Origin: Branchiostoma floridae
Lineage: Eukaryota; Chordata; Leptocardii; Amphioxiformes; Branchiostomatidae
Reading direction: 5' to 3'
Assembly: GCF_000003815.2 (NCBI RefSeq)
Contig: NC_049984.1
Coordinates: forward strand, 2,123,759 to 2,187,758
DNA length: 64,000 bases
Part shown: positions 1 through 50,798 of the stretch, piece after piece
Layout of the letters: each line of letters starts with the position of its first letter
Numbering within the stretch: the stretch's first letter is position 1
Translations under genes and position numbers: made by a program
Notes under the pieces: model-generated
Databases searched by the model: none
The model's input: the letters and a program-made list of their open reading frames with translations, nothing else
What the model was told of the DNA's origin: nothing

Positions 1-61
1 CTCTCCGCTGCTTCCTTAGGTTTGGTCGCACCACCGGGTTCTGCTTCTTCTGCTGAGTACT
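1..61 (-). CDS. ANKRD11: ANKRD11-like coding exon 8 (cut by the window edge)
   Basis: Acceptor tttctattgcag precedes 61; phase 1 from the previous exon gives [20 protein letters not shown] with no stop to the window edge. Charged, low-complexity residues fit the linker after the ankyrin domain in this family, but similarity is too weak to rely on alone; phase agreement and the acceptor are the main evidence. Confidence 0.7.

Positions 62-50798: not shown

Follow-up and report, generated by a model that had tools for sequence, protein, structure and literature searches.

Why do splice junctions of two neighboring genes in the lancelet Branchiostoma floridae recur as copies in the adjacent introns, and do these copies meet junctions more often than chance would allow? 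The window considered here is the whole stretch of 64,000 nucleotides (nt) analyzed (contig NC_049984.1 of assembly GCF_000003815.2, positions 2,123,759 to 2,187,758). It contains SPG7 (paraplegin), transcribed rightward, and a leftward-transcribed ankyrin-repeat gene that we take to be ANKRD11/12-like (ANKRD below). With a probability of roughly 0.7, the duplications are tandem events of the type called "mirage" minisatellites, tolerated by splicing of the innermost pair of sites, and they contact junctions more often than expected by chance. The excess is suggestive for duplications that span a junction and strong for those that at least touch one.

Junction contact in the two genes

Comparison of the window with itself (spacing up to 2.5 kb, score at least 44) yields 33 clusters of local duplication, 16 of them inside the two gene spans; a microsatellite cluster at 11319 was excluded, leaving 15. 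Nine of these span a junction and extend 8 nt or further to either side of it, another four reach to within 8 nt of one (the acceptors of ANKRD exon 4 and of SPG7 exons 19 and 20, and the ANKRD exon 5 donor), and two (2968-3442 and 6239-6566) do neither. All copies are in direct orientation, with periods of 83 to 229 nt. There are 47 testable junctions (24 acceptors and 23 donors, with the unplaced SPG7 exon 1 donor and the SPG7 exon 15 acceptor, which falls in an N gap, left out), and the spanned ones comprise four acceptors and five donors, such that neither type of splice site is preferred. An initial annotation of this DNA had named 11 junctions, and each has a local direct copy, located at or close to the place given there. 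Its description of these as copies of the junction itself applies to nine, the acceptors of ANKRD exon 4 and SPG7 exon 20 being copied on the intron side only, and two duplications are absent from its list, one at the donor of ANKRD exon 5 and one at the acceptor of SPG7 exon 19 (Table 1).

The excess at junctions was evaluated in this one window, with 15 clusters, by counting duplication events under three null models. When each whole footprint is relocated rigidly anywhere in its gene, 4.6 clusters are expected to span and 5.4 to 5.5 to touch a junction, compared with 9 and 13 of 15 observed (at score 44, P of ∼0.008 for spanning and 0.00002 to 0.00004 for touching). If exons are kept intact during relocation the expectations fall to 1.9 and 2.5, and the excess persists over eight settings of score and distance. 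The strictest model places one period-long repeat unit on the gene minus its extra copies, again with exons intact, using unit lengths entered by hand from the alignments; 3.4 spanning and 4.0 touching clusters are then expected, with P values, calculated from rounded placement probabilities, of 0.0018 and 1.3e-6. The corresponding odds ratios are 5.5 for spanning (likelihood interval, 2 to 16) and 19.5 for touching (5.5 to 126). Inverted local matches number 30 in the window and seven in the gene spans, and none of these seven touches a junction.

The direction of the copies, stressed in the initial annotation, in contrast carries no information on mechanism. Acceptor copies lie upstream and donor copies downstream because intron sequence would otherwise lie inside the exon: after tandem duplication of a unit containing an acceptor only the downstream copy stays joined to the exon, and for a donor only the upstream one. 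Geometry thus forces the polarity at 100%, and it tells only that the exon is intact.

Table 1. Gene models and duplications at splice junctions, in window coordinates
Feature	Coordinates	Strand	Relation to junction, or basis
SPG7 (paraplegin), exons 2-20	36462..50798	+	Splice sites, open frame, domains, structure match
SPG7 exon 4 acceptor, 2 upstream copies, period ∼160	37508..37878	+	Spans
SPG7 exon 4 donor and copy (38074-38129)	37942..38129	+	Spans
SPG7 exon 7 acceptor array, 10 upstream copies, period ∼98	39587..40652	+	Spans
SPG7 exon 9 donor and copy (41999-42101)	41871..42101	+	Spans
SPG7 exon 13 donor and copy (44604-44671)	44461..44671	+	Spans
SPG7 exon 19 acceptor, intronic duplication stopping 7 nt short	49863..50130	+	Touches
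SPG7 exon 20 acceptor, intron side only	50486..50595	+	Touches
ANKRD11/12-like gene, six exons (3-8 in the initial annotation's numbering)	1..10631	-	Splice sites, ankyrin repeats
ANKRD exon 3 acceptor and copy (10808-10867)	10591..10867	-	Spans
ANKRD exon 4 acceptor, abutting array, units ∼150 nt	8137..9673	-	Touches
ANKRD exon 4 donor and copy (7582-7772), period 191	7582..7965	-	Spans
ANKRD exon 5 donor, intronic tandem duplication, period 229, beginning ∼2 nt inside the donor	4496..4999	-	Touches
ANKRD exon 6 acceptor and 4 upstream copies, period ∼149	1378..2318	-	Spans
ANKRD exon 7 donor and copy (625-717)	625..818	-	Spans

Anatomy and origin of the copies

The array at SPG7 exon 7 is the best example. 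Each copy comprises the acceptor and the first 66 nt of the exon, and the five copies nearest to the working acceptor at 40587 are identical to the working junction across 45 nt of intron and 66 nt of exon. The working junction was therefore itself part of the latest amplification, and the intron side of its acceptor, which is T-rich, consists of array sequence. The five farther copies differ, and the farthest (39599) has an intron flank that differs and is presumably older. Copies of the SPG7 exon 4 acceptor follow this age order too, with 85.5% identity between the real junction and the near copy, 70.5% between the real junction and the far copy, and 75.8% between the two copies. At ANKRD exon 6 the order is only rough (91.6, 93.4, 89.5, and 86.3% with distance) and in the ANKRD exon 4 array it is not seen, so that youngest copies on the exon side were rejected as a general rule.

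Several copies have individual features. The SPG7 exon 20 copy (50486-50512) matches at 26 of its 27 nt and consists of 26 intronic bases and a single exonic one. The ANKRD exon 4 array halts at the junction, its first alignment starting from 8137 and the exon ending at 8134; some of its units resemble, by eye, ∼8 further bases of the exon start. At the SPG7 exon 9 donor, a 25-nt spacer looks by eye like an internally deleted third copy; a simple continued copy was rejected, as the spacer does not match the sequence that follows the copy. The unit of the ANKRD exon 6 array (1706-2295) contains GGTTCAAATCC, which resembles the tRNA T-arm/B box consensus and is possibly a remnant of a short interspersed element.

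Under exon definition, the innermost pair of splice sites is used. The duplications probably began as short tandem events that included, or ended at, one exon edge, arising by putative slippage or unequal exchange, and some then expanded into minisatellite arrays. They would persist because splicing pairs sites across the exon and uses the innermost acceptor and donor, leaving an extra copy as silent intron. Part of the ∼5-fold odds ratio for spanning is due to easier detection; the rest we attribute, with less confidence, to duplications being born or surviving more often where exons end. A bolder version, which we consider rather doubtful, makes junctions hot spots for both birth and polar growth, the exon edge acting as a growing point from which the working junction is repeatedly re-copied into the intron, as with the five exact copies at SPG7 exon 7, and at which a working acceptor can acquire array sequence as its intron side.

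Detection bias and other explanations

A number of observations weigh against a junction excess. Taken literally, the expectation of the initial annotation that junction windows are copied more often than random intron windows fails: with 60-nt windows at score 40, a local copy is found for 11 of 47 junctions (23.4%), compared with 23.4% of intron and 20.4% of intergenic positions. (This set of 11 includes the ANKRD exon 5 donor and omits the ANKRD exon 4 acceptor, and so differs from the 11 named initially; with the flank reversed, 0 of 47 have a copy.) Under rigid relocation, the spanning excess has P = 0.056 at a score cutoff of 100 and is weak for each gene separately (SPG7, 5 of 7, P = 0.050; ANKRD, 4 of 8, P = 0.080). 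The span criterion follows from the initial claim, but the touch criterion was set after a first look at the clusters. The contrast with inverted repeats is weak, as five of the seven inverted matches in genes are palindromes and two are separate inverted pairs. Of the 23 copies belonging to 10 junctions, all 23 retain the AG or GT, and exonic mismatches are distributed 14:8:39 over codon positions, but copies with shared changes enter both counts and are not independent. Among lancelet globins, two junctions are affected in 15 genes that each have two or more introns, according to the accessible part of PMC3087553, and the SPG7/ANKRD locus may be unusual. Lastly, if duplications at exon edges were detected, or survived, twice as readily as others, the P values of the strictest model would rise to 0.052 for spanning and 3.3e-4 for touching, and at a threefold bias to 0.20 and 0.0041.

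The last point bears on the alternative that survives best, namely, that detection and survival bias suffice: duplications arise at random, but a copied exon edge remains recognizable, and one of the two copies is shielded from deletion. The size of such a bias was estimated by simulating duplications at exon edges and within introns, at three lengths and two indel rates, the substitution rate in exons being set to 0.1 of neutral. Across the six settings the exon-edge duplication is detectable for only 1.25 to 1.38 times as long as the intronic one, and at a bias of 1.4 spanning and touching still have P values of 0.011 and 2.3e-5; the simulation used short indels only, with neither large deletions nor element insertions, and a bias nearer to 2 is possible. 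Identity to the working junction, with gap columns excluded, is 92.4% for exonic positions (414/448) and 90.3% for intronic positions (486/538), counting the last of the 10 SPG7 exon 7 copies and one of the four at ANKRD exon 6. The near equality argues against old copies having been rescued by constraint on the exon. In addition, 4 of the 13 touching clusters hold almost no exon sequence, and touching remains above expectation even at a threefold bias. We therefore regard detection and survival bias alone as a possible explanation, with the odds clearly against it.

A high general rate of tandem duplication, with junctions hit in proportion, would account for the equal position counts, but it is an unlikely explanation, as the event-based null models show an excess. 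The event count is, we take it, the fairer of the two tests, and the position test is judged poor because most copied intron positions sit in the arrays that touch junctions; outside these, copied positions make up 3.4% of intron (0.4% in SPG7 and 7.1% in ANKRD). The genes also differ from their surroundings: the 37.3 kb of intergenic DNA contain 12 clusters spaced by no more than 600 nt, a density that omits 5 of 17 clusters with larger spacing, and on the noncoding gene DNA minus extra copies it predicts 5.7 clusters compared with the 15 found (P = 0.0008). G+C content was also considered as a cause and rejected; intergenic duplications are not GC-rich (in 130-nt windows, 0.378 versus 0.399), and the value for duplicated junctions (0.484, n = 9) is close to that for the others (0.461, n = 37).

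Two further explanations are improbable. Selection for spare splice sites, as back-ups or splicing modulators, would fit the intact AG and GT dinucleotides, but full retention is unsurprising among similar and largely non-independent copies, the codon pattern can also arise from a silent copy next to an exon under constraint, and an exon extended to the copied donor meets an in-frame stop in four of five cases, ANKRD exon 7 being the exception. An assembly artifact, through unmerged haplotypes or inflated repeats, is similarly remote: the window has two 100-N gaps and the five identical SPG7 exon 7 copies could be mis-sized, but many copies are 5 to 18% divergent, the exon part included, which is too much for two alleles, and comparable repeats in lancelet PGBD5 were confirmed by re-sequencing (PMC3902484, accessible part).

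Relation to known systems and other features of the window

Tandem, junction-contacting duplication is thus the reading we favor, and its kind is already known. The likeness to lancelet mirages, pointed out in the initial annotation, holds well, in that the repeat unit spans the exon-intron boundary, the exon is intact with its extra copies in the intron, and the copies retain splice signals. Mirages are described in Adh3, BflGb6, and BflGb9, with units of 10 to 72 bp, 150 to 160 bp, and 157 bp, respectively, and reverse transcription-PCR gave regular splicing of both globin genes (PMC3087553, in the part accessible). The copies described here resemble the globin mirages in their range of unit lengths and in the splice signals present in many copies; they differ in affecting other genes, in involving many junctions of two adjacent genes, and in having been evaluated against placement null models, here from sequence only. 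A further difference is that the boundary units of BflGb6 are excluded from homogenization (PMC3087553, same part), whereas the working boundary unit of SPG7 exon 7 lies inside the identical block. In lancelet PGBD5, imperfect tandem repeats of 60 and 108 bp overlap the 5′ and 3′ splice sites, and TnC is cited as a further lancelet case (PMC3902484, accessible part); PGBD5 is similar in having tandem repeats over splice sites but is a single gene, with no rate estimate in that part of the text.

What is new here is two more genes, an event-based excess at junctions, and recent amplification on the exon side at SPG7 exon 7. Intron gain by tandem duplication reportedly occurred in potato RdRp. 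As a model, such gain is quoted in the accessible part of PMC3087553. Duplicated splice signals are common to that model and to the present case, but here existing introns grow instead; no new intron within a former exon was found in the two genes, with no orthologue compared, and all 13 touching clusters lie in intron beside a modeled exon. If the excess holds genome-wide, exon-edge tandem duplication would rank among the main ways in which introns grow in this lineage. It would also offer a natural setting for studying how splicing passes over decoy sites that are nearly perfect, and it would cause errors in gene prediction. Counting duplication events rather than positions, with polarity disregarded, is a sharper test of this than the one first proposed. 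No genome-wide rate of junction duplication was recognized in the literature covered, most subscription papers lying outside it, and the accessible part of a paper on lancelet gene-prediction errors (PMC4967905) does not mention junction repeats.

The 25 modeled exons comprise SPG7 exons 2 to 20 and ANKRD exons 3 to 8, the last of which extends past the window edge. Every placed SPG7 splice site is a canonical GT or AG, and the spliced frame is open through exons 2 to 14 and 15 to 20; the conceptual protein has the Pfam domains FtsH_ext, AAA, and Peptidase_M41, and its best solved-structure match is paraplegin (2qz4, 4.5e-121), followed by AFG3L2 (6nyy, 2.7e-94). The ANKRD frame is open up to exon 5, and exons 6 to 8 are in frame once the exon 6 acceptor is shifted by one base (by eye). 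The two N gaps are at 45714-45813 and 47691-47790; SPG7 exon 15 starts within the second, and 4 bases past the first is the beginning of a 39-bp tandem repeat (1.9 copies). Long imperfect palindromes (∼80% complementary) are present at 39273-39380, in SPG7 intron 6, and at 62259-62463.

Other repeats are of different types. The cluster at 2968-3442, away from any junction, consists of a 350-bp element (3032-3378) between 64-bp direct repeats that are 94% alike, and is either an insertion with an unusually long flanking duplication or a duplication enclosing the element, relatives of which are at 16268-16627, 17379-17729, and 30203-30580. A 351-bp tandem repeat at 15349-16390 (2.7 copies) has a piece of the same element family in its unit, in both direct and inverted orientation, and a 211-bp tandem array (4.7 copies) at 30835-31804 lies outside both modeled genes.
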